Assembly: GCA_934693135.1 (NCBI GenBank)
Contig: CAKUVA010000041.1
Location: 1-11,374, forward strand
Direction: 5' to 3'
Origin: an uncultured Bacteroidales bacterium
GTDB lineage: Bacteria > Bacteroidota > Bacteroidia > Bacteroidales > UBA932
Length of the DNA: 11,374 nucleotides
Below, piece by piece: positions 74 through 11,302 of this stretch; the first letter of the stretch is position 1; each line of letters opens with the position of its first letter. The notes beneath the pieces were generated by a model. It did no database searches. It worked only from the letters and a program-made list of their open reading frames with translations, and was not told the DNA's origin. Both the position numbers and the translations under genes were made by a program.

Positions 74-571
74 TTATTTAAGGATTGTATGTTCTTTGAG
101 ATTAGGATGAAGAATCTTTTGCGTTTTTATTTCAACAATGCGGTTCTTGTTATCGTAACAATACTCGTTAATTTCATCTTCTGAAAGTCCAGGCCAGGTG
201 TCAAATTCTTTTACAATACGACCAGCTGAATCATACTCATTCTTGGGATGAGATGCAAGGAAGTTCTTGAGTATTCCGTCCTGTATGTTATAATAATGGC
301 CAGAATAACTGTCATTTTTAATGCTATGAAGAATTTCTGATATAGGAGTCCCATTTTTAGAGAACTGTACAAATTGTCTGTCGGTAGAATTCGATAATTC
401 CAGCAAAAAAACGGGACCGCGCACATCAAAGTATTCAGAAAATGTTTTAATCTTGCCAATATATAATGAAGTATATCCGTCCCAAATACCAGTTACTCGT
501 CTCAAGCTTGTGGATCTCCGATACATAATTAAATGTTTGTGTGATAATGCATTTTTAAAATGATTACGCAA
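74..571 (-). CDS. 5'-truncated hypothetical protein with YD/RHS-like repeats
   Basis: Function unknown. The C-terminal third contains two YD/RHS-like units: NEYDSAGRIVKEFDT, then NEYCYDNKNRIVEIKT. These match the loose pattern Y-D-x2-G/N-R-[IL] of extracellular RHS/YD repeat proteins. The rest is not recognised. No signal peptide or membrane helix is visible. The start is doubtful: the first start-like codon, at 571, is TTG, while the frame is open back to 592, where it meets the TAA that ends the neighbouring IS1595 transposase frame. The first in-frame ATG is at 526, inside what looks like ordinary coding sequence. I infer that the 5' part was removed when the IS1595 element, or a deletion next to it, created this junction. 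The gene lies in the same direction as the large operon upstream and may once have followed it. It could be a silent remnant or a short expressed protein. Confidence 0.5.
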   Translation of the reverse strand: MRNHFKNALSHKHLIMYRRSTSLRRVTGIWDGYTSLYIGKIKTFSEYFDVRGPVFLLELSNSTDRQFVQFSKNGTPISEILHSIKNDSYSGHYYNIQDGILKNFLASHPKNEYDSAGRIVKEFDTWPGLSEDEINEYCYDNKNRIVEIKTQKILHPNLKEHTILK

Positions 572-592: not shown

Positions 593-1357
593 TTAGGCCA
601 GGGCCGCAACCATGAGCTTATCTAACAGTGCATTGCCGAAACGCCGCCGGTTGAACTTATAGCAGAACTCATTCAGGTAGTTCTGGAGATAGCCCGGCGT
701 GATTTCATGGTAGACATCCAGCAGAAGCCGTTTGGCATTGCTGGTGGCGATATGGACCCATGGAAGGATCTTGCCGACCTGTACAGGTTCTATGACCTGA
801 TGGACGTGCTCCTCCACAAGAGACTTGAAGTTCGTATATGATTTCGAATCGTCTGTCTCCGCCAGCACCAGGACCTTGCTTTTCTTCTGGCTGCCGTGTC
901 CCCGTTTGAGAGGCTTATCCTTCTCGGAATCAAGGGCTTCGGTGGAGAAGAAGCCTTCGTCAAGTTCAACCATGCCGCACACCTTGTACTCGGCGTCCCG
1001 TTTACCCATGGCATTACGGAGTTTATGAAGCATCGCCCAGATTGGCATATAGTTCTTGTGTCCGAGTTGTCGCTGGAGTTCGGCTGCGGAGAAGCTCTTC
1101 TTCGTCGAGGTCAGCAGGTGCATGGTGATGAACCAGTACCGCAGCGGCAGCTGGCTCCCGTGCATCACGGTGTTCGCCTTCTGACTCTGGCGGTAATGGC
1201 AGTGCTTGCACTCGAAGCACTTCTTGTCGCCTTTCCAGTAATGCTCCTTGCACCCGCAGTGAGGGCAGACGACTCCCTGTGTCTCACGGTACTCTCTCAG
1301 CTTACGTTCGCAGCTTCCCTCATCAGGAAAGACCTGCATAAAGTCAATAAGTTTCAT
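593..1357 (-). CDS. IS1595 family transposase, internally deleted and C-terminally truncated
   Basis: DDE-type transposase of the ISXO2/IS1595 group. An N-terminal zinc ribbon (CPHC, then CFECKHC) is followed by the catalytic domain. Visible are VELDEGFF with the first Asp, TDDSKSY where the family usually has a DG-S-x-SY-type second Asp, and LPWVHIATSNAKR with the third catalytic position (Asn in this subgroup). I place the start at the ATG at 1357 (MKLIDFMQVF). The frame stays open to 1435, but that extension runs through the terminal repeat and is not family-like. The protein is about 254 residues, against roughly 300 as I recall the family. The segment between KVLVLAE and TDDSKSY, normally about 40-50 residues, appears to be missing in frame. 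The C-terminus also stops at LMVAALA, before the usual SYKN-type tail. Probably inactive. Confidence 0.72.
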   Translation of the reverse strand: MKLIDFMQVFPDEGSCERKLREYRETQGVVCPHCGCKEHYWKGDKKCFECKHCHYRQSQKANTVMHGSQLPLRYWFITMHLLTSTKKSFSAAELQRQLGHKNYMPIWAMLHKLRNAMGKRDAEYKVCGMVELDEGFFSTEALDSEKDKPLKRGHGSQKKSKVLVLAETDDSKSYTNFKSLVEEHVHQVIEPVQVGKILPWVHIATSNAKRLLLDVYHEITPGYLQNYLNEFCYKFNRRRFGNALLDKLMVAALA

Positions 1358-1393
1358 GTCCCTTTGTTTTATAGGGACAAAGTTACCGCCAGG

Positions 1394-1422
1394 CCTTGAC
1401 AACTTTTGACAAAAGCTCGTCC
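1394..1422 (-). repeat. Right terminal repeat of the IS1595-type element
   Basis: Read inward on the minus strand, the end starts GGACGAG and contains TTTTGTCAAAAGTTGTCAAGG, with TTGTCAA repeated in tandem. It lies inside the spurious N-terminal extension of the transposase frame, which supports the internal start at 1357. No matching left-end copy is present near 593. Confidence 0.55.
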
Positions 1423-1438
1423 TTAGGTGGAACATTGA

Positions 1439-2392
1439 TTAGTCATTTAAATTTTTATCATCAAGGTTTTTAATCTCCATATTGGCATTTGATAATTCTT
1501 GCTTAACAACTGCAAGGCTATTTTCCAGATACTTGATTGTGCTATTTTGCGCCTTAATAATGCTTTCTTTCTCCTCAATAATTTTTTCATTGTCTTTAAC
1601 ATTTGTAGAGAGAGTATTTACTCGATTAGAAAGGTTCACACTGATTGATACGAATATAATCACAACAACTACCATAAGTACTAACGCAGCCACCACTCTT
1701 GTATGCTTCTTCTGGCGGTGAACTTTTGTTAGTTCATCAGAAAGTTCCTTGGTTGTGTTTGTTAAATTCTCAATTTGCTTGTTCAGACTTTTAATTTTAC
1801 CGGAATAGCCAACAAGTAATTGAGTATCGTAATCTTCGTTTTTGTAAATATGAATTAAGTTAAAAAGCTTTATGTTACTGTTAATATCAGCAGCTGTGGC
1901 TGTTGTGGGTAGTAAAACAAATTTGTCTGCACCTGCAGCATAATTTAAAGGAGGTAATTTCCTAAAACTATACCCCGATATCTTATCTATAGACAGGGAA
2001 ATGTGTTGCATAATCCTATCGACCTCAGTGCGTTCTTGATGGAGTTTTATGGCTTTAACCGTGACATCACCAGCATCAGTAAATTCAAGTATCTTGCCCA
2101 CGACTACAAGCTCAGCCATAGTGCCTTCAAAAATTGAGAACATTTGCTTTATATCGTTGCAGTATAGGTCGTTGAATGATACCGCCACACCGATATACTT
2201 GTTCGGAACAGATTTGCTGTATAATCTCCTGACATAGATATAGTACACCAAATTGTCATATCTTCTGATAGCAATCTGTGTTTTGACCTCGTTACAGGTC
2301 GCTACGCTCTTGAAGATATCTTTTGCATAATCATCTGGATATTGAGTATAACCAGAGCCAAATTCTCCGAAAATATATGTGGAATGATTCAC
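1439..2392 (-). CDS. Membrane-anchored coiled-coil adaptor, paralogue of the first operon gene
   Basis: Function unknown; 317 residues. Residues 1-195 form a globular domain shared with the gene at 8707-9483: STYIFG near the N-terminus, YYIYVRR at 50-56, IGVAVS, and LPPLNY at 146-151. Coiled coil follows at about 198-228, then a basic patch (HRQKKHTR), one membrane helix at 233-252 and a second coiled coil to the end at about 255-312. The positive-inside rule puts the N-terminal domain in the cytosol and the C-terminal coil in the periplasm. The start is GTG, one base after the stop of the protease gene, which implies translational coupling. It is the last gene of the operon; a decayed IS follows 16 bp after its stop. 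It probably acts as an adaptor or sensor linking the cytosolic GTPase to the envelope parts; that is inference. Confidence 0.7.
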   Translation of the reverse strand: MNHSTYIFGEFGSGYTQYPDDYAKDIFKSVATCNEVKTQIAIRRYDNLVYYIYVRRLYSKSVPNKYIGVAVSFNDLYCNDIKQMFSIFEGTMAELVVVGKILEFTDAGDVTVKAIKLHQERTEVDRIMQHISLSIDKISGYSFRKLPPLNYAAGADKFVLLPTTATAADINSNIKLFNLIHIYKNEDYDTQLLVGYSGKIKSLNKQIENLTNTTKELSDELTKVHRQKKHTRVVAALVLMVVVVIIFVSISVNLSNRVNTLSTNVKDNEKIIEEKESIIKAQNSTIKYLENSLAVVKQELSNANMEIKNLDDKNLND

Positions 2393-2393
2393 T

Positions 2394-2930
2394 CTACTTC
2401 AGTTTGAATCGAATAACTTTTGAGTCATTATCTATGGTATAGGAGGCCACCCTGTCTAGGACACCATTACCAAGAAGAACCGGAGCTTCAGTATTTGAAG
2501 AAACTTGAGTAAGTACATCTCGGCAGACTATTGTTTGGATTCCATCAGTAATTTCGAGCGTCCGTATGTTGAAAATGGCATCTTCCACGACACTTCCATC
2601 AGCAATGCTGGACTTGGCTGTTCCAAGGAAATCGTCTTCTGTTAAAAGACCACGTTTCAATAGTTGCTTGGCCTCAAGTGGCGAGATAAGAGTGAGGGAA
2701 CATCCTGTGTCAAAAATCATGTCGGTGCTCAGCCCGTTAATCTTTACCTGAACAAACTTCACGCCTCCTTCTAATGTATAGGGGACATTTATCGTCTCAT
2801 AATCCGACACGGTTTCGGTCGGATAGTTGACATAAGGAATATGAACCTTTTTCGACTTATTACTGCCAGAACAAGACACTAAAAGCAAGATGGCGGCCAT
2901 CAGCAACGATTGTCTTATAACAGTTTTCAT
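2394..2930 (-). CDS. Lipoprotein with retropepsin-like aspartic protease domain
   Basis: 178 residues. The N-terminus is a lipoprotein signal peptide: hydrophobic run MAAILLLVSC with lipobox LVSC and the lipidated Cys at 20. The following residues (SGSNKSKK) lack the acidic surface-export signal of Bacteroidetes lipoproteins, so I expect it to face the periplasm. The mature part is a clan AA, retropepsin-like domain: VKINGLSTDMIFDTGCS with the catalytic DTG at 74-76, an ISPLEA segment, and the C-terminal LLGNGVLDR-type segment followed by a strand ending in IRFKL. One DTG motif per chain means that, as in retropepsins, the enzyme would have to dimerise. Its start overlaps the previous stop by four bases (ATGA) and the next gene starts one base after its stop, so it is a genuine operon member. 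Substrate unknown; it might cut a periplasmic domain of one of the co-encoded membrane proteins. Confidence 0.8.
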   Translation of the reverse strand: MKTVIRQSLLMAAILLLVSCSGSNKSKKVHIPYVNYPTETVSDYETINVPYTLEGGVKFVQVKINGLSTDMIFDTGCSLTLISPLEAKQLLKRGLLTEDDFLGTAKSSIADGSVVEDAIFNIRTLEITDGIQTIVCRDVLTQVSSNTEAPVLLGNGVLDRVASYTIDNDSKVIRFKLK

Positions 2931-4408
2931 TGTTTATTCACTTTGAAAGAATGAGTAAAGACCTTATTGTTGTTAACATAATAAGACAACACATGGTTTT
3001 CCCCTGAGATAGGAGTAGCAGAAATCTCTTTTTGTTTCTTACTGCCAGAAATAGAAAAACCATTGCACTTCCATTCGCCTTCCTGTTCTGGCACACCAGT
3101 CAAGATTATCCTATATTGTTTGCCGAGGATAAGAGGTTCATTTACATCTGCATTTGAGTTGTCTTTAATAACGATCAGAGGTGAAGTTTGCTCGGATTGA
3201 ATTAGGCTGAGTGCCTTGGTCAGTTCAATGTATTTAGCCTCAAGTTCGGAATTCTTAGCCGTTAATGCTGAATACTGTTTTTTCAGTTCTGACGTTTTAG
3301 GAGCACTTTTAATTTCTCTGACACAGAAAAGCACAACAATAATTACAACAACAACAGCAGTGATGATTATAATGTATTTCCTGCGATTTTCTCCTTTCCA
3401 AAGAGATGAGTCATTACGATAATCATTATTCCGCCCAATGTCAAGGTGATCCATGGCCCCAGCATTAGGCTTGACAGATCTAAGAATTTCCAGCATCTCG
3501 GACAAATCCGGTTCTAATCTATCGGCCACAGCACCTATATCTGAGCACTTTTTTAACCTATCAACCTCCTGCTTTAATCTTGTGTTATCTTGCTTGAGAG
3601 AACTATTGGAGGATTTTAATGAATTTAATTCTGCACTTAATCTTTGATTTTCAGATTTTGTTGTTGATAAATCATTGGAAGCAGTAGTCAATTTCTGCTT
3701 AAGTCCCGGTATCTGTTTGCTGTCTTTTTTTAAAGCATCAATTTGATTCTCATATTCTTTCTTGCTTTCTTGATATTTTTGATCCGAAGACAAAAGAGAA
3801 GATATTATCGCATCTTTAGATGTATATACTGGAGAGACATATACTTTGCCATATATTTTGGTGGCGTTGAAAAAAGTCTCGCAATCCACATCGTTAATGT
3901 TGTAATAAACAGATTTCGACGCGTTTTGTTTTGTAAAAGAAGAATCGATCACCTCAAAGTCGCTTCCGAAATTAGAGATTATCTGATTTCTTGCCAATTT
4001 TGAGATTTCAGTCAATTCTCCGCCCACATCCTTGAAATTGGTAATTAAGTATTTCTCTGAATTTTTGTTATTACTTAAAAGTTTTCCGGAAATTTTTTGA
4101 GTATAAATTGTATCAAAGAGGTTAAACAAGGAATGGACATCGGTACAATAATTTCCTTCCACTTTTAATGACATCCCAAAATATGAGCCGGTACGGCCTC
4201 CCTCTGCGATAACATTCTGTGGTCTTATGTACGAGTAGTACGAGCAGAACTTATTAGCGTCCTTTCTGATTTCAATCACGAATGCTGATTGGGCTTTATT
4301 GAAGGTATCAAGAATATTATAGAATGAATTATAGTACGAATCATCGGAGGTGCCCCAGGCATCAAAGCCCTGAGGCACTCCGTGAAAAACAAATTCTGCT
4401 ATCTCCAT
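2927..4408 (-). CDS. Large membrane-anchored coiled-coil protein with periplasmic beta domain
   Basis: 493 residues, function unknown. The N-terminal domain (about 1-200) looks like a divergent copy of the domain in the first and last operon genes: FVFHG at 6-10, CSYYSYIR at 55-62, YFGMSLKV at 76-83, and DVHSLFNLFD at 90-99 against DIKQMFSIFE in the last gene. Next come a long coiled coil (about 205-290), a basic stretch (ENRRK), one membrane helix at 345-364, a second coiled coil at 370-405 and a C-terminal domain of about 80 residues rich in beta strands, perhaps Ig-like (ILGKQYRIILTGVP, EWKCNGF). Predicted topology is N-terminus in the cytosol and beta domain in the periplasm. It starts two bases after the GTPase stop codon, so the two are probably translated together. 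A GTPase partner or effector adaptor role is a guess from this pairing. Confidence 0.68.
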   Translation of the reverse strand: MEIAEFVFHGVPQGFDAWGTSDDSYYNSFYNILDTFNKAQSAFVIEIRKDANKFCSYYSYIRPQNVIAEGGRTGSYFGMSLKVEGNYCTDVHSLFNLFDTIYTQKISGKLLSNNKNSEKYLITNFKDVGGELTEISKLARNQIISNFGSDFEVIDSSFTKQNASKSVYYNINDVDCETFFNATKIYGKVYVSPVYTSKDAIISSLLSSDQKYQESKKEYENQIDALKKDSKQIPGLKQKLTTASNDLSTTKSENQRLSAELNSLKSSNSSLKQDNTRLKQEVDRLKKCSDIGAVADRLEPDLSEMLEILRSVKPNAGAMDHLDIGRNNDYRNDSSLWKGENRRKYIIIITAVVVVIIVVLFCVREIKSAPKTSELKKQYSALTAKNSELEAKYIELTKALSLIQSEQTSPLIVIKDNSNADVNEPLILGKQYRIILTGVPEQEGEWKCNGFSISGSKKQKEISATPISGENHVLSYYVNNNKVFTHSFKVNKQ

Positions 4409-4410
4409 GT

Positions 4411-5343
4411 TTACCCCCTAATTTTCTTCATTATGGTATTCCACAACATCTGAGGATATTCGTCCACTCCCTGCTGGTACGTTAAGTATGCTGAACCATC
4501 TGCACGTGTCGCTTCTGTAAACATGCCATTAGAAAAAGGGACAAGCTCACATAAATAAGGTTTCAGCCATTTATAGATCGGTACTTCGTTAACAAATGGC
4601 GTAAATATACCCGGATACATATTGCTGATATCATTCTTTACGCCCGCTATATTAACTCTACCTGGAGAAATCACGAAGTTTGACTTGTCCACCTTGTTAT
4701 AGAGAAAAATAGCTTTGTCTTGTACTCGCATCATTGTTTTAAGATGATGTATTCTGGAAACATATCCACTTCTATCTGAAGAATCTTTCCAGTCAGGTTC
4801 AACCATATAAATCCATATTTTTCTATTATTACTGTTAATAATAGTATTGACGTACGCCGGGAAAGGATTATCTGGCTTTTTGGGATTGAAGTAATACTCG
4901 CCGGGCGCCTCAAGGATCTGGCAGATACGACGGCCGTTTTTATCAAGTACTTCAACCAACATGAAGCTAATCATCTCCGTACCTTGAGCCGCGTTTGATG
5001 AATTGACAAGTTCATTATATCCATCGCACATTTTGGCATAATGGGCATCCGCCGCAGGCCTAAACGAACGGATTGGAGACACGCGATATCCATATTTCAG
5101 TAAAAACCTAGTAAGGCGAATGAGAGTCATCGTTTTTCCGCATTCAGTTGGACCGAACAAAACAACGATAGGAACGTTTGGATCCGCAATGGTGACGACT
5201 ATGCTATTGGGATCATTGTACTCAGTTTGGCTGAGGCCTGTCTCTGAGGTGTCGTTGATTGTAGATTCTTCTGAAATTATAGGAGCAGCTGTGACAGTAG
5301 GTTCGCCAGTAGAGACTCCTTCAAAATCGAATTTTTTTGCCAT
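4411..5343 (-). CDS. P-loop GTPase (TRAFAC-like), switch of the operon
   Basis: 310 residues, soluble. After a Ser/Thr- and acid-rich, probably disordered N-terminal tail of about 55 residues, the nucleotide-binding core shows Walker A/G1 GPTECGKT at 64-71, a G3-like segment LEAPGE at 144-149 on a hydrophobic strand, and G4 NKVD at 216-219, which specifies guanine. A possible G5 follows at VPFSNG (268-273). The G3 Asp of the usual DxxG is replaced by Glu (EAPG), an oddity noted separately. No membrane helix is present, so it should work in the cytosol, probably on the cytosolic domains of its membrane neighbours. Single-domain GTPases of this kind occur in bacterial conflict operons, but I cannot assign this one to a named family. 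It starts 36 bp after the four-helix protein stop and ends 2 bp before the next start. Confidence 0.8.
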   Translation of the reverse strand: MAKKFDFEGVSTGEPTVTAAPIISEESTINDTSETGLSQTEYNDPNSIVVTIADPNVPIVVLFGPTECGKTMTLIRLTRFLLKYGYRVSPIRSFRPAADAHYAKMCDGYNELVNSSNAAQGTEMISFMLVEVLDKNGRRICQILEAPGEYYFNPKKPDNPFPAYVNTIINSNNRKIWIYMVEPDWKDSSDRSGYVSRIHHLKTMMRVQDKAIFLYNKVDKSNFVISPGRVNIAGVKNDISNMYPGIFTPFVNEVPIYKWLKPYLCELVPFSNGMFTEATRADGSAYLTYQQGVDEYPQMLWNTIMKKIRG

Positions 5344-5379
5344 AATAATTTACTTAAATTTGGTTGCTTTTGTTGTGTG

Positions 5380-6453
5380 CTATTCTTTTTTGAAAGCAAG
5401 GTCAAAGAAGATAAAGGCTCCAAGGTCAACAAGGATTGAGAGAAGAACCCATATGATTAGGCCTCGCCCGGCATACTTCCCATTCAAGAAATCTTTCCAT
5501 ACATCAAAGACACTCAGCATACGTTCCACCCGGGTCACAGCCTGAACAGGATTACCTTCGGCATCTTCCGGTAGATATGTTTCTTTGTCCCCTGTATTGA
5601 AGTCGATGTAATTACTATATGTCTTGATTGTTGAATATCCTCTAACGAGTCTGCTATTAACATCCTTAACTTGCTCGGCAATGTTCAAATCGATCTCCCC
5701 GCTCTTTATCAGATTCTCGGCATACTCAAGATTTTTATAGTCAGTAGATGCTTGACCCTTATAAGTGTTTTCGTCAGGAGCTGTCATTGAATTACGAATA
5801 TTCGTAAGTTTACTTTGCATCAGAATATTGATCTTCTGGCGGTACGCGTCAACGAGTTTTGCACGAGTTTGTACGGACTTATCGTTAAATGATAATGGCT
5901 CCACCTTATCCACTTCCAAAAGCGTAGCGAACTGTGCCAGAATGCGTCTGGCATTAGACCCGAATCCGGGATTTGCATCATTCTTTATTTCAGATTCAAG
6001 TTCGGCAAACAAACTCCAAACCTTATTTTGGAATTCAGTTTGTTTGTCTCTGATCTTGGTCTCCGTAAGAGTATTGTTCTTCAGTTGATCCAAATATCCC
6101 TTTGTGGTAGAAATGTCGGTACTTGCGACACTTTCTATCGAGCTTCGATAAAAGAAAGTATGTGTATTGGTTGGCATACTGAAAAGAAGCCAGAATACAA
6201 GAACAACCAATATGCCGGCTATTAACTTTCCACCTCTCTTTTCAACATAAACATTCTGATTGAAGCTGTCAACAATCAATTTAGTTCCCCAAGAAGCAAT
6301 AATGAAGAAAGCGATGGTTACAATCCAGCACAAGAGCTGAGGCCAAGATGAGAGAAGAAGATGCAATGACTCTTGTGTTGCCCAGCAACTGACGGAAGCC
6401 AATGCGATAAATGCGAAAACTGAAATGACTTTCAAGGTGTTGTTTTGTTCCAT
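5380..6453 (-). CDS. Four-helix membrane protein with large periplasmic loop
   Basis: 357 residues, not recognised. Membrane helices are visible at about 8-25, 38-63, 75-94 and 330-352. With the N-terminus in the cytosol, three helices in a row place residues 95-329 in the periplasm. This loop is mostly predicted helix, with many charged residues and no Cys. The last helix returns the short C-terminus (FKKE) to the cytosol. It lies between the stator genes (24 bp upstream gap to the OmpA-like gene stop) and the GTPase gene (36 bp gap), so it could join the stator to the GTPase or sense envelope state. The spacing is looser than elsewhere in the operon, but no terminator or clear promoter is visible there. 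Confidence 0.68.
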   Translation of the reverse strand: MEQNNTLKVISVFAFIALASVSCWATQESLHLLLSSWPQLLCWIVTIAFFIIASWGTKLIVDSFNQNVYVEKRGGKLIAGILVVLVFWLLFSMPTNTHTFFYRSSIESVASTDISTTKGYLDQLKNNTLTETKIRDKQTEFQNKVWSLFAELESEIKNDANPGFGSNARRILAQFATLLEVDKVEPLSFNDKSVQTRAKLVDAYRQKINILMQSKLTNIRNSMTAPDENTYKGQASTDYKNLEYAENLIKSGEIDLNIAEQVKDVNSRLVRGYSTIKTYSNYIDFNTGDKETYLPEDAEGNPVQAVTRVERMLSVFDVWKDFLNGKYAGRGLIIWVLLSILVDLGAFIFFDLAFKKE

Positions 6454-6476
6454 GATATTAATTGATTGAATGTTAT

Positions 6477-7136
6477 TTATTTGCGTATTTCCTTTATGAC
6501 TCCGGGTTTTGGCAATATATGGATCAAAAACCTTTGGTTGAGATGCTCATCAGATTCTCTCATTAGTCCAGTACCGCTTTGTACACCATCACCGCTGCCG
6601 CAAATGAGGACTTCGCAATTCTGTTCTGTAAACTTGATATCGTTGGCCTCCCAAAAGCGCTTGAGGTCAAGTGCTCTGCTGTAGCTTAATTCATAATTCC
6701 CCGCAAAAGAATCTCTTGAGGCCTGCCCCTCAATGATAAGGATGTACTGTATTCCAGGATATTTTTTAGTGGTCTTTTCAATAAAGGATTTTGCGCTCTT
6801 CCCTGCTTCAAGTAGTTTGGTTTTTATCTCATCCGAAACATATTTGTCGATATTTGACTGTCCTTTCGGGAAATATACATCTATCTTGAGTTTATGTTTT
6901 TTGAAGTCTTCTTTATATTCAAAATAATCTTCATCTAATCCCTTGGTAGCATCTTCGATTTCTTGAGCCTTGTCCAACTTTGCTTGTAGATTGATATTGT
7001 TCTGGATAACCTCTCCTTTCTCTTTGTTCAGTTGAACAACCGCGACAACAAAAAGCATAAGCATGACAAAGAAAAGGCTCGTCATGAGATCAGCATAGCT
7101 GGCCCAAAAATAGGATTTATTCTTTTTCTCCGTCAT
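6477..7136 (-). CDS. MotB/ZorB-like stator subunit with OmpA-like domain
   Basis: 219 residues. The N-terminus is the typical MotB/ZorB helix, FWASYADLMTSLFFVMLMLF at 10-29. It carries Asp16 in the position of the proton-binding Asp and the YADLMT context common to this family. A short coiled linker (40-80) leads to an OmpA/MotB-type peptidoglycan-binding domain at about 84-208: EGQASRD at 136-142, NYELSYSRAL at 147-156 and NQRFLIHI at 200-207, matching the family pattern of Asp, N-x2-LS-x2-RA and a late Arg. It should span the inner membrane once and grip the cell wall, forming the ion channel with the product of the adjacent upstream gene. The ATG follows directly on the upstream TAG with no gap, as expected for a subunit pair. 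Known relatives are MotB, TolR/ExbD (without OmpA) and ZorB. Confidence 0.85.
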   Translation of the reverse strand: MTEKKNKSYFWASYADLMTSLFFVMLMLFVVAVVQLNKEKGEVIQNNINLQAKLDKAQEIEDATKGLDEDYFEYKEDFKKHKLKIDVYFPKGQSNIDKYVSDEIKTKLLEAGKSAKSFIEKTTKKYPGIQYILIIEGQASRDSFAGNYELSYSRALDLKRFWEANDIKFTEQNCEVLICGSGDGVQSGTGLMRESDEHLNQRFLIHILPKPGVIKEIRK

Positions 7137-8702
7137 CTATCCAACGATGTGTTTAACAACAAATTCGTATGCAAACATCACAAACGCAAGAAGTGCGATA
7201 ATCCTAATGGAGGTGTTCAGAATGTTCATCCATTTTCTGGATTTGTTCCTTTTGGATGTGGAAAACTGTTCTGAAGATGGTAATCGAACGGCACCATCAC
7301 GTATGCTATAAGCACCAGATTCAATCAGCCTAACGATTTGATCAAGCCGTTTGGAATTCTCCCTTGATATATCAGCAAGAGACTTTATCGAGCCACTCAT
7401 TTCCAACATATCTTGCATCCTCTTGAAAATCTCTTCTATATCTGCAGCACTTTGAGAAATGCCATTCTGCTGTTCCTTTAATTTTTCAACAAAATCTGCC
7501 TGCTGCTTTTCGTAAGTCCCCTTAAACATCTCAGCTTCTGTTGCTGCTTGAGTCTTAAGAGTCTCCATGTATTGCCCCAGAGATTCTGTTATCTGTTTAA
7601 AGGACTTTTCCAAAGAGCTATCGACACTACTTACTACTTGTTTTATATATTCTTCCCTTGATTGCACTTGAGTCATCTCTTTCTCGAAGAAAGTCCCCAT
7701 ATTCTCAATTGCTGCTGTTCGATCAAGGTGATTATTCAGATTCTCGTTGAGGCTGTTGACGGCATTCAGATAGCTATTCACATTGGTCAGATACTGAGTA
7801 AATTGTCCTATTTGCCCAGTACATTTTTGCAGTTCATTTAGTACTACGACATTAGCTTTGGCTGCATCCTTTATATTAATTTTGCTAATAGCATCTAATG
7901 CATATGCTTGATCTTTTGAGACCTGCCTAACACTTGTCAAGACATTATCAAATTCTTTGATATTGCCTTGGAAAGTCTGGTTGAAAGTCATCAAATTTGT
8001 TTGAAGGAGGGATAACGCCGTTACTGAATTGCCTGAAAGTACTGGCAAGAGTTCAGTTTGAAGCCAGGAATAGAATAGATTCTTATTGGTTTCAATCTGA
8101 GTCTTTGCGCCTTTAGACTTCCATGATATAATGGTGGTGCATAGTATACCAACGAAGCTTGCGGCCATTGCAATGGCAACACAAATCATCATTGAAGAAA
8201 CATTTGTCAGATTGTCAACCCCACCGTTGAATGCAATGATAGAAATGCCTACAATGATTCCCACCATTGTACCCATCAGCCCCATATAAAGCGGGATAGG
8301 CTGCATGATGGATATCTCTTCCTCCTCGGCGCCACAATATCTTTCTACTACGTCCTTCATCAAGGAAAAATCGCTCGCTGCTCCTTTGTTTTTCTGAAGG
8401 TACATATTGATGGCATCCTTGATGTTTGTGGCTGTCGGATCAGTACTATTGATTGATATTTGTGATACTTCAACCTCTCTTGTAAAAGAGGTGCCATTGG
8501 AATTCCATAACTCATCAGAATTAGGGTCTTCTGATTCATGGATGGTGATACTGGCTTTATTAATCGAATATGCCAACTTGTTTGAGGGGAAAATGTCCTT
8601 GAATGTATTGGTTTTATTGACAGCTAGCCTAAATATCCTTAATTGATAGATAATTATAATTAGGATAATAGGGACAACAATTATATAATGAATAATGTTC
8701 AT
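7137..8702 (-). CDS. ExbB/TolQ/MotA-like (ZorA-like) stator subunit with long coiled tail
   Basis: 521 residues. Topology resembles ExbB/TolQ: helix 1 at 4-24, a cytosolic segment to about 130, helix 2 at about 136-159 (IPLYMGLMGTMVGIIVGI, with the GLLGTVxG-like signature of the family) and helix 3 at 169-192. The cytosolic tail, about 193-490, is long and mostly coiled coil (strong at 280-460), as in ZorA rather than ExbB. Unusually, the tail ends in another hydrophobic helix at 496-516 (IIALLAFVMFAYEFVV), so it should be tied back to the membrane. It is expected to form a pentameric channel around the OmpA-domain partner encoded directly downstream and to turn ion flow into movement or force. 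It starts four bases after the stop of the previous gene. Family membership is confident; the biological role is inferred. Confidence 0.82.
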   Translation of the reverse strand: MNIIHYIIVVPIILIIIIYQLRIFRLAVNKTNTFKDIFPSNKLAYSINKASITIHESEDPNSDELWNSNGTSFTREVEVSQISINSTDPTATNIKDAINMYLQKNKGAASDFSLMKDVVERYCGAEEEEISIMQPIPLYMGLMGTMVGIIVGISIIAFNGGVDNLTNVSSMMICVAIAMAASFVGILCTTIISWKSKGAKTQIETNKNLFYSWLQTELLPVLSGNSVTALSLLQTNLMTFNQTFQGNIKEFDNVLTSVRQVSKDQAYALDAISKINIKDAAKANVVVLNELQKCTGQIGQFTQYLTNVNSYLNAVNSLNENLNNHLDRTAAIENMGTFFEKEMTQVQSREEYIKQVVSSVDSSLEKSFKQITESLGQYMETLKTQAATEAEMFKGTYEKQQADFVEKLKEQQNGISQSAADIEEIFKRMQDMLEMSGSIKSLADISRENSKRLDQIVRLIESGAYSIRDGAVRLPSSEQFSTSKRNKSRKWMNILNTSIRIIALLAFVMFAYEFVVKHIVG

Positions 8703-8706
8703 GATC

Positions 8707-9426
8707 TTATATGTTCAGTGTAATTAGCTGATGCGTATACATATATATGAATCCAATCGTCAAACAAACGAGCAGGAAGAGAAGTAAGAATGACAGGGAG
8801 GCCATAAATTTTTGAGCTTTTACTTGTTTTGATTTCTGAGGCCGCTCTGCGGATAAAGTGCGCTGCAGTTTGAGCTCTTCACTTAGTTGTTGGATTTTAA
8901 GAATCAACCCATTAAAGGCCGGAGTGCCAATGTTGTCATTTTTAACAACATAGACCATGTTATTAATTGTGATTTTACCCTTTATTATTTGCACCCCATC
9001 TGAAAGTGATGCTCCTTGAAAACCAACATAAGACGAATAATTGACGGGAGGCATAGCCTCAAAATACTTCTCTCCGTCTGAAATGTCGCTCTTGATCCTC
9101 TTGGAAATCAAGTCGTGTTCATAAAGGAGTGAGCCGTTGGCGATTTTTAAAAAATGAATTAATCCTTCATTATTAACAGTCAACACATTGCCTTCAATAA
9201 CAATCGCTTGATATGCAGACTCAAATAAGCGGAACAGCCAGGATAGATTGTACGTGGCCATACTATTAATTGAGATACAAATACCAAAATAGAGGGTATT
9301 ATCTTTTTCCGCCACTCGTCGCATATAAGCATAGTACATCATGTTAGGCTTCCTAAAAACTGCAATTTGAGACTCCGACTTGAAATTATTTGCCAGAGGT
9401 TGCAATTGAGTTTTTAGCGAGTCCAT
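8707..9426 (-). CDS. Tail-anchored protein of the shared-domain family, 5' end damaged
   Basis: Function unknown. From the first in-frame ATG (9426) it is 239 residues: a globular domain to about 172, a coiled segment (172-190), a basic patch (KSKQVKAQK) and a C-terminal membrane helix at 208-230, with almost nothing beyond. The domain should therefore face the cytosol. It is homologous to the last operon gene: YYAYMRR against YYIYVRR, and MPPVNY against LPPLNY. The homology continues upstream of the ATG. The frame is open to 9483 and encodes NCSTYIFG then YFQYP, matching NHSTYIFG and YTQYP of the paralogue. The codon matching the paralogue's GTG start is GTT here (9481-9483), right at the edge of the insertion sequence, and an in-frame TGA lies three codons before it. 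The native start is therefore missing, and any protein from 9426 lacks the first strand of the domain. Confidence 0.65.
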   Translation of the reverse strand: MDSLKTQLQPLANNFKSESQIAVFRKPNMMYYAYMRRVAEKDNTLYFGICISINSMATYNLSWLFRLFESAYQAIVIEGNVLTVNNEGLIHFLKIANGSLLYEHDLISKRIKSDISDGEKYFEAMPPVNYSSYVGFQGASLSDGVQIIKGKITINNMVYVVKNDNIGTPAFNGLILKIQQLSEELKLQRTLSAERPQKSKQVKAQKFMASLSFLLLFLLVCLTIGFIYMYTHQLITLNI

Positions 9427-9478
9427 GGGATATTGGAAATATCCGTCAGAAGTTGTCCCGAAGATATAGGTGGAACAA

Positions 9479-9482
9479 TTAA
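9479..9482. repeat. TTAA, left candidate target-site duplication
   Basis: TTAA directly outside the left terminal repeat. It is matched by TTAA at 11299-11302. It overlaps codons 1 and 2 (GTT AAT) of the damaged first operon gene. Confidence 0.5.
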
Positions 9483-9511
9483 CTTTAGTTCAGCGCAAAA
9501 GTAGCACTACA
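9483..9511 (+). repeat. Left terminal inverted repeat
   Basis: CTTTAG, a variable 8-mer TTCAGCGC, then AAAAGTAGCACTACA. It matches the complement of 11270-11298 at 24 of 29 positions, and the inner 15 bases are identical. Confidence 0.75.
9496..9503 (-). promoter_or_regulatory. Outward TAnnTTTG element at the left IS end
   Basis: On the minus strand 9496-9503 reads TACTTTTG, a match to the Bacteroidetes -7 consensus TAnnTTTG, pointing out of the element into the operon. No TTTG-like -33 element sits at the usual 19-20 bp distance (nearest CAAA complement at 9539-9542 is too far), so it may be weak or incidental. Confidence 0.25.
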
Positions 9512-9604
9512 GCAATCGGGCTAAGCGACCACATTTGCCAAATAATTGATTTCTAATAAAATTGCAGCTCAAATGTTTGCTAGTGTCAAAAATGTTTCTT
9601 AAAT

Positions 9605-9628
9605 TTGTAGTGCTACTTAATACTACAA
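9605..9628 (+). repeat. Internal third copy of the end repeat with small hairpin
   Basis: TGTAGTGCTACTT at 9606-9618 is the exact inverse of 9499-9511 in the left end and a direct repeat of 11270-11282 in the right end. It overlaps a small stem, TTGTAGT (9605-9611) with ACTACAA (9622-9628) and a 10-base loop. It lies 17-40 bp before the transposase ATG, so it could be a transposase-binding operator or, in transcripts entering from outside, form a long stem with the left end that hides the start region. Confidence 0.5.
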
Positions 9629-9644
9629 TACAAGACATTCTGAT

Positions 9645-11268
9645 ATGGCATTTATAAGGGTTCAGAAACTGGTGCGGGACAGTGACGGGAATATTCTCAG
9701 CGGCAGTGCGGCCATCAAGGAGTCGCAGTACATCAGGGATGGAGGGCAAGTTCCATTCCAGGCAGATTGTACGCGAACGTCTCGGGAAGGTCGTCTGGCT
9801 GGCTTCGGACGGCAAATCCGGAATATTCCTTTCCCCCAGCAGAGGACTTGTGTCCTATGATTCCGTCTCCGATAGTTTTGACGAGGTCGGCCGCGATGAC
9901 GGACGCCTGTCCGGCGTAAGTGCCGATGTTTTTCCTGACACCGAAATCCACACCGTATTCGGCGATGCGCACCTCCTGCTTTGCTTTCTTGTCAAGAGCG
10001 GAATGGCCGAAGTGCTGAAGACTGCATTCCCCGATGAAATTGAACGGGAACGCGTCCTGTGCCATATCCTGCACAGCATCCTCCGCGACGGGAGCCGCAT
10101 AAGTTGCGACAACTTCATCGAGAAGTCTTTCGCCTCCTATGTGCTTGAGGACATCCCCACGGCATCTCTCCGTTGTGATACCGCATACTTCAGCATGATG
10201 GGAAAGGACAGCGTCCGTCTGGCTTTCTTCAAAGCATTTGTTGAAAGAATGAGGAAGACCAGCCCCGACTTCGGAAAGTGCTGCTACGTCGACTCTACGC
10301 CCCTTCCCAACGATATTGACAACAACCCGTTCAACGCCCTCAGTTGTCATGGGGTTGACTCCTCCTCCGTACAGACCAGGCTTGTCCTCGTACTGGACGA
10401 GGAAACCGGTTCCCCCGTATGGTATGATATCATCCCCGGTAACGTCCTTGACATCAATACCATAATGACCGTGTTGAATGACGTTGCAGTAAGCCTTGAC
10501 ATTACAATCAACTCCCTTGTGCTGGATGCCGGATACATATCCAAGGAAGTGATGCACGCCTTTCACAACGGCACCGAGAAGTCGCTTGTCGGCAGGATGC
10601 CGGCAAGGAAGGGCTTCCCGTTCAAGACGCTCTACCACGAATTCAAGTCCAGCCTTGACAAAGGGAAATACCGTTTCGTCCGTGGAGGTCACGTCTACTT
10701 TGGCAAGAGGAAGGAGATTGAACTTTTTGGTGAGAAGATCTTCGCCTATGTTTATGTGGACAAGCACAACGCCCTCCAGAGGGAGCGCAACTACATGCTT
10801 GATCACCCCGAGGAATATGCCGCCCTGAAGGATAAAGAGAAGGACTGGATGTCCGTGCGCTTCGGTTACTTCGTGCTGCTTTCCAACAGGAAACTCGAGC
10901 CTGTCGACCTGCTCACAGAATACTTCGGCAGAACTGATATTGAAGGAGTCATCAAGACCAGCAAGGAGTATCTCGGGCTGCTGCCGCTGTCCAAGTGGTC
11001 TGCAGACACCGTGCGGGGAAAGATACTCAGTGACATAATGAACACCATCATCTTCCTGAACATGCGTAAAGCCTTGGACGAAAGCGGATTGTCGGTCAGT
11101 GAAGTGACCGGCAAGACTCAATCCCTCATGTGCTTCCGAAACAAGCATGGCGAAATATTGATAGAAACACCTAATAAAAAGGTCAAAGCGTACTACAAGC
11201 TCATCGGCGAGACCGTCCCGGCAAGCTTGAAAATCAATGACTTCCGCCGGAAGGTCATGCTCGCGTAA
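9645..11268 (+). pseudogene. IS1634-like DDE transposase, frameshifted near the N-terminus
   Basis: The transposase starts at ATG 9645 with a family-like N-terminus (MAFIRVQKLVRDSDG, ILSGSAAI) but shifts frame at the G run 9744-9746. Removing one G joins QYIRDGG to KFHSRQIVRERLGKVVWL and gives a continuous 540-residue protein. After the shift the frame runs to the TAA at 11268. The core shows DDE residues: CYVDST with Asp at 10291, LVLDAGY with Asp at 10525, and the IS4-superfamily YREG-like segment YFGRTDIEGVIKTSKEYL with Glu at 10942. Without the shift, translation from 9645 stops at 9860 after 71 residues. An ATG at 9682 in the downstream frame exists, but its first 18 residues (Ser/Arg-rich) are not family-like. 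It may be a true mutation, a sequencing indel or, less likely, programmed frameshifting. The assignment to IS1634 rather than another IS4-like family is from recall. Confidence 0.72.
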
Positions 11269-11269
11269 T

Positions 11270-11298
11270 TGTAGTGCTACTTTTGGCATTATCTAAAG
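11270..11298 (-). repeat. Right terminal inverted repeat
   Basis: Read inward on the minus strand: CTTTAG, variable ATAATGCC, then AAAAGTAGCACTACA. It begins two bases after the transposase stop codon, so the gene fills the element to its right end. Confidence 0.75.
11278..11285 (+). promoter_or_regulatory. Outward TAnnTTTG element at the right IS end
   Basis: TACTTTTG on the plus strand, the mirror image of the left-end element, pointing towards the partial gene at 11334. No -33 element is seen at the normal spacing. It is part of the conserved inner repeat, so its presence at both ends is not independent evidence. Confidence 0.22.
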
Positions 11299-11302
11299 TT
11301 AA
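11299..11302. repeat. TTAA, right candidate target-site duplication
   Basis: TTAA directly outside the right terminal repeat. It sits at the centre of a perfect 12-bp palindrome AAAGTTAACTTT (11295-11306), which makes the exact element boundary ambiguous by a few bases. Confidence 0.5.

Follow-up and report, generated by a model that had tools for sequence, protein, structure and literature searches.

An apparently undescribed Bacteroidales operon with a putative GTPase-longin switch, extended in a few loci by a ZorAB-like stator cassette

Results

Gene layout of the window. The DNA analyzed here, referred to as the window, comprises 11,374 nucleotides of contig CAKUVA010000041.1 from an uncultured Bacteroidales bacterium (assembly GCA_934693135.1). 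It contains eight minus-strand open reading frames (ORFs), named A to H, which lie between two insertion sequences (ISs) with an inter-gene spacing of -4 to +36 nt (Table 1). A preliminary description of this DNA had placed eight genes at 1439..9483, and all eight ORFs were recovered. In profile scans, D, E, F, and H of the window did not reach any curated Pfam or NCBIfam cutoff. The core gene set, D to H, is conserved in gut bacteria and appears to be undescribed; it appears to encode a membrane-bound switch whose build resembles that of GTPase-longin switches in animal and yeast cells, to which the window copy adds a phage-defense-like proton motor that most relatives lack.

Table 1. Features of the window (TM, transmembrane segment)
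Feature	Position	Strand	Description	Evidence or remark
A	8707-9426	-	Third adaptor: putative H-type longin-like domain and C-terminal TM	5' truncated by IS
B	7137-8702	-	MotA/ExbB/ZorA-like stator subunit; long coiled tail, C-terminal hydrophobic segment	Alignment A5
C	6477-7136	-	MotB/ZorB-like subunit; plug Asp16 invariant; C-terminal half OmpA-like	Alignment A4
D	5380-6453	-	Four-TM protein with helical periplasmic domain	Topology from sequence
E	4411-5343	-	P-loop GTPase, Ras/Rag/Arf-like fold	
F	2927-4408	-	Adaptor with a putative longin-like domain at residues 1-195, then a coiled coil, a TM (343-364), and an Ig-like domain (411-491)	
G	2394-2930	-	Retropepsin-like lipoprotein, DTG motif	
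H	1439-2392	-	Adaptor with a putative longin-like domain and a TM flanked by two coiled coils	
IS1634-type insertion sequence	9479..11302	+		Inverted repeats 9479-9511/11270-11302
IS1634-type transposase ORF	9682-11268	+		PF01609 1.2e-6, above cutoff; NF033559 8.9e-21, below its cutoff
IS1595-family transposase	593..1435	-	Beside end of H	NF033547 4.8e-49; PF12762 1.3e-11

A five-gene core recurs without the stator. A genome scan for relatives of E yielded 79 loci, 75 of which are Bacteroidota by title; the other four (L047, L052, L064, and L073) are contigs of metagenome-assembled genomes under 10 kb and are perhaps mis-binned. Commensals carrying the core include Parabacteroides distasonis and Segatella copri. 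ORFs were called in these loci and labeled with iterative profiles, and one fragment (L076) was dropped, leaving 78 loci. All 78 have D no more than two genes upstream of E. Within two genes after E, an adaptor (F) is found in 76; a second adaptor is present in 62, G follows within four genes of E in 55, and B or C occurs in 4. In the subset of 47 loci whose sequence extends over 4 kb upstream and over 5 kb downstream, D and F are each present in 47, the second adaptor in 41, G in 34, and B or C in 2. These counts are lower bounds, and a further G-like ORF surfaced later in L045. Rescanning with four- and five-row stator profiles returned the same four loci (L001, L002, L013, and L051), plus one marginal match of the B profile to an adaptor. 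The preliminary description had treated the eight genes as one conserved machine. With a stator in 4 of 78 relatives and the core recurring alone, the set of eight is not conserved together in other genomes, whereas the core is; a single eight-gene machine was thus ruled out, and the window is read as a five-gene core joined by a cassette of three genes. What has held up is the idea that these genes form a seemingly undescribed envelope set in which a stator-like pair and a GTPase are accompanied by a lipoprotein protease and by paralogous adaptors anchored in the membrane, and a literature search of titles and abstract openings (subscription papers and most preprints excepted) found no description of the D-E-F-G-H operon.

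The four stator-bearing loci differ in layout. The genes of L002 run in the order SNase-A-B-C-D-E-F-G. In L013, G is followed by an H-type adaptor, B, and C, and contig ends truncate L001 and L051 on the B side. Compared with L051, the window proteins are 56% (B), 66% (C), 39% (D), 44% (E), 23% (F), 45% (G), and 39% (H) identical; compared with the stator-less locus L003, the values are 61% (D), 61% (E), 32% (F), 62% (G), and 39% (H). The simplest reading of these comparisons is that the stator may have been transferred between core lineages, though A itself is only 29% identical between the window and L002. Synonymous sites are saturated, and a dN/dS ratio is therefore not claimed.

The GTPase and its adaptors. 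E contains a P-loop (about 5131-5154), a G3-like EAPGE motif (about 4897-4914), and an NKVD motif (about 4687-4698), and both the P-loop and NKxD are conserved in the E family. Structures were predicted for two proteins, F and E, and that of E is a confident G-domain model with a Ras/Rag/Arf-like fold, which bears out the P-loop GTPase proposed previously. The search with E gave 950 protein matches; among the 120 matches listed, 10 have a precomputed Pfam label (generic AAA) and the others have none, which, together with the subthreshold scores of D, E, F, and H, makes the operon easily missed. Two E-type genes lie side by side at L061:4738-6670 and L068:10001-11744, possibly as a GTPase pair.

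The three membrane-anchored proteins A, F, and H had been assigned to one domain family, and in agreement with this, a profile of H plus A matched F with a probability of 99.6% (E value, 3e-24). The predicted model of F suggests that the common domain may be longin-like. In a midpoint-rooted tree built from 142 of the 143 adaptor domains, 64 H-type rows were separated from 78 F-type rows with a split support of 100/100. All but one of the F-type rows (77/78) lie directly behind E, and the three stator-linked copies fall in the H-type group, where A of the window and A of L002 pair at 100/96 and the L013 copy is found elsewhere. Two adaptor paralogues are present, side by side, in most loci, as an obligate heterodimer would give.

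The four-TM protein and the lipoprotein. D has three invariant residues: N96 and H98 follow TM3, and D343 lies within TM4 (alignment A3, 66 rows). Its Pfam matches are scattered and weak, the best represented being DUF4407 (6/66), and no convincing match was seen among solved structures. In general, fold families missing from match listings were not counted as excluded. G matches PF13975 (1.3e-8) and PF13650 (1.6e-7), both above cutoff, and an FDTG motif and a lipobox can be read from its sequence; by family match and DTG motif it is the retropepsin-like lipoprotein described initially. Proteins of 680 to 688 amino acids near the core also match the retropepsin profile (L001:9927-11993 and L011:14145-16187), and the L001 protein consists of TPR repeats joined to a retropepsin domain.

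The stator pair. Of the proposed ZorA/ZorB-like pair, C is ZorB-like and B resembles ZorA/ExbB/MotA models only weakly. C matches the PADLOC ZorB1 model PDLC00608 at 1.8e-12 and, as a five-row profile, matches 8vvn_B at 8.5e-8, the similarity spanning the TM and the periplasmic part; 8vvn_B is a solved type I ZorB (PMC11890865). The Pfam MotB_plug match of C is under its curated cutoff. Matches of B to MotA/ExbB/ZorA models are all under the curated cutoffs (TIGR02805, 8e-5; NF033917 ZorA, 2.3e-4; PF01618, 0.04), and those to the PADLOC ZorA model (0.0018) and to solved ZorA 8qyy_A (E value, 0.79) are similarly weak.

C-like proteins also occur apart from the core. A C match at an E value of ≤0.001 was found in 23 of 393 Bacteroidales genomes, five of these being weak (6e-6 to 9e-4), and E was found in 4 of the 393, G002 included. 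We examined 19 stator regions, 17 from this search and two from another, several of which stop at contig ends. Nine of them encode a protein of ~1,100 residues, 8 have a tubulin-like gene (PF00091 at 1.4e-5 for L116, below its cutoff), 5 have a labeled G, and 4 have an SNase. A second Bacteroidales ZorAB-like operon was noticed in L109, L113, L114, L116, L117, L121, L122, and L126; it encodes a lipoprotein of ~420 amino acids, the tubulin-like protein, the ~1,100-amino-acid protein, B, and C, sometimes with a retropepsin G and SNase and in six of the eight with a small TM protein of ~150 amino acids recognized by the search. At L124:9146-16136, genes for a protein kinase, a PP2C phosphatase, and a vWA protein adjoin a ZorAB-like stator.

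Flanking genes. The genes behind the core differ among loci and include BACON-type proteins, lipoproteins, a DNA/RNA endonuclease (L017 and L030), and an SNase (L032); these secreted or envelope genes may be effectors or chance neighbors. A family of ~200 amino acids (one short member has 99) is encoded directly behind F in L050, L054, L055, L057, L065, L066, L067, L072, and L075. In the 16 of the 79 loci, all stator-less, whose flanks were read by eye, the neighbors are mostly housekeeping genes with some mobile-type or AAA genes, such as an AAA gene in L010, a HipA-like gene in L021, and plasmid- or integrase-type genes in L049 and L078. L007 has an AAA-ATPase/PDDEXK gene, and the Porphyromonas loci L020 and L026 have upstream flanks in common. 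Conflict-type neighbors, which favor defense, were seen in two of the four stator-bearing relatives. In L051, a TIR gene lies between the operon and ftsA/ftsZ-like genes. L002:12344-18109, on the opposite strand, encodes a ThiF/E1-like protein, a Clp-type AAA ATPase, and small proteins with no Pfam matches, and this operon matches the PADLOC E1-E2 models at 1.8e-32. Ten proteins flanking the four stator-bearing loci were scanned with PADLOC, and the four from L013 and the one from L001 had no match.

State of the window copy. The inverted repeats of the IS1634-type element place its insertion at the start of A, which has been removed; the A frame is open up to 9480 with no start codon, and its upstream residues, up to the IS, resemble the beginning of the L002 adaptor. 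A repeat search at 12 nt found no inverted repeats for the IS1595 element, whose limits were set by eye. Since the stop of H is outside the IS1595 end so read, H seems to be intact; it is shorter than most of its relatives. Beyond IS1595, a 165-amino-acid ORF (74-571, minus strand) has YD-repeat-like stretches by eye and no Pfam match at an E value of ≤0.01.

Discussion

The data presented here strongly support a conserved operon with a GTPase that has the expected fold and G motifs, two deep adaptor groups with one cytosolic domain, an upstream four-TM partner, and usually a retropepsin-like lipoprotein. As to binding, catalysis, and role, we infer, at slightly less than an even chance, that D-E-F-G-H constitutes an inner-membrane GTPase switch of Bacteroidales with longin-like adaptors, to which the A-B-C cassette adds a ZorAB-like stator in a minority of loci. 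By analogy, F and H would pair through their longin-like domains, bind E, and set its GTP/GDP state, so that E would be a membrane-proximal switch held by the two adaptors. D and the periplasmic parts of F (Ig-like) and H (coiled coil) may sense or act on the envelope and thereby link the switch to it, and G may trim a periplasmic partner. Where the cassette is present, the stator, with its own H-type adaptor A, could couple ion flow and cell wall contact to the switch. The likely role is to monitor and repair the envelope or cell wall, and action against phages or DNA is more probable for the form that carries the stator.

Longin heterodimers set the GTP/GDP state of eukaryotic Rag, Rab, and Arf GTPases, and these heterodimers, along with MglA/MglB and the conservon modules, would be the closest working analogues. 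Like FLCN-FNIP, Lst4-Lst7, and GATOR1, the operon combines the predicted folds of E and the F domain with two adaptor paralogues in most loci; unlike them, the adaptors are bacterial, are anchored by one TM, and have periplasmic parts, and the likeness is one of predicted fold. MglA/MglB and the actinobacterial conservons already provide known examples of a bacterial GTPase whose operon also encodes a roadblock/longin-class partner. However, the sequence families are distinct as far as the Pfam scans show, and no kinase-like sensor was noticed here.

An anti-phage system with Zorya-like logic, in which the stator would detect disturbance of the wall as a phage enters and infection would be halted by the GTPase-adaptor complex together with secreted nucleases or proteolysis, seems unlikely to us, although several observations fit it. 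As in Zorya, C is ZorB-like over its TM and periplasmic part, and the weakly ZorA/ExbB-like B has a long cytoplasmic tail; an SNase gene directly precedes A-B-C in L002 and recurs in other stator regions, adjoining cargo genes differ from locus to locus, and TIR and E1-like/AAA genes neighbor L051 and L002, respectively. Unlike in Zorya, the stator of the window is tied to a GTPase-adaptor operon, the C terminus of B is a hydrophobic segment, and most core loci (74/78) have no stator. As the preliminary description had noted, ZorC, ZorD, and ZorE were not visible: none was found among the eight proteins of the window, which is bounded by ISs, or the ten scanned flanking proteins, and plain Zorya was rejected on this ground. 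The same description had inferred defense or envelope stress sensing from the stator resemblance and the IS-rich setting. A defense role could not be confirmed: searches of viral contigs, plasmids, and phages gave no relative of E, and the 16 stator-less flanks read by eye are mostly housekeeping.

Less probable still is a regulator of trafficking, secretion, or motility, whose GTPase would control where a surface machine is placed or how active it is, in the manner of MglA/MglB in gliding or TagF in type VI secretion. The motor is missing from most loci, and no secretion or gliding genes were noticed in the flanks read by eye, with no profile search aimed at them; likewise, no type VI secretion genes, to which TagF belongs, were recognized in the 16 flanks, with no Tss profile search.

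The DO-GTPase/GAP1 conflict systems (Kaur et al. 2020, PMC7159879) also place a GTPase and a partner in one operon, with membrane parts and occasional paired GTPases, as in L061 and L068. E shares an APGE motif with DO-GTPase2 (single-sequence comparison; probability, 11%), among 23 relatives of E, one shows a match to PF19993 with an E value of 0.06, and the start of GAP1 resembles F and H by eye. In addition, stators of this type are found beside tubulin-like genes and, elsewhere, beside those for a kinase, PP2C, and vWA; such partner types are reported for GAP1-N2 systems (PMC7159879). The operon here differs in having two membrane-anchored adaptors, D, and usually a retropepsin lipoprotein. 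In Bacteroidota, a search for GAP1-N2 (PF20013) gave 1 match in 296 genomes, and a search for DO-GTPase2 (PF19993) gave a match in 8 of 148 genomes, 1 above cutoff. A membrane-bound branch of these systems, diverged past sequence recognition and with the adaptors in the GAP1 role, is the least probable reading, and membership was rejected, as profile comparisons were negative for E (27-row DO-GTPase alignment; probability, 1.3%) and for the adaptor domain (F and H plus A, 10-row GAP1 alignment; 0.1% each), leaving no profile match for either.

Returning to the GTPase switch with longin-like adaptors, a wider form of this reading is possible but doubtful: the operon may be a bacterial, membrane-anchored counterpart of the eukaryotic Rag-GTPase/longin-heterodimer platform, an envelope switch of Bacteroidales with periplasmic sensors and a pluggable, transferable ZorAB-like cassette that brings its own longin adaptor, and hence a categorically new, modular GTPase-gated machine. 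Eukaryotic membrane signaling depends centrally on longin domains that act with Rag and Arf GTPases. If the reading is correct, a bacterial operon with a Rag/Arf-like GTPase and two ancient membrane-anchored longin-like partners would provide a tractable case that bears on the origin of that logic, and ZorAB-like stators would be interchangeable cassettes that are not confined to Zorya.
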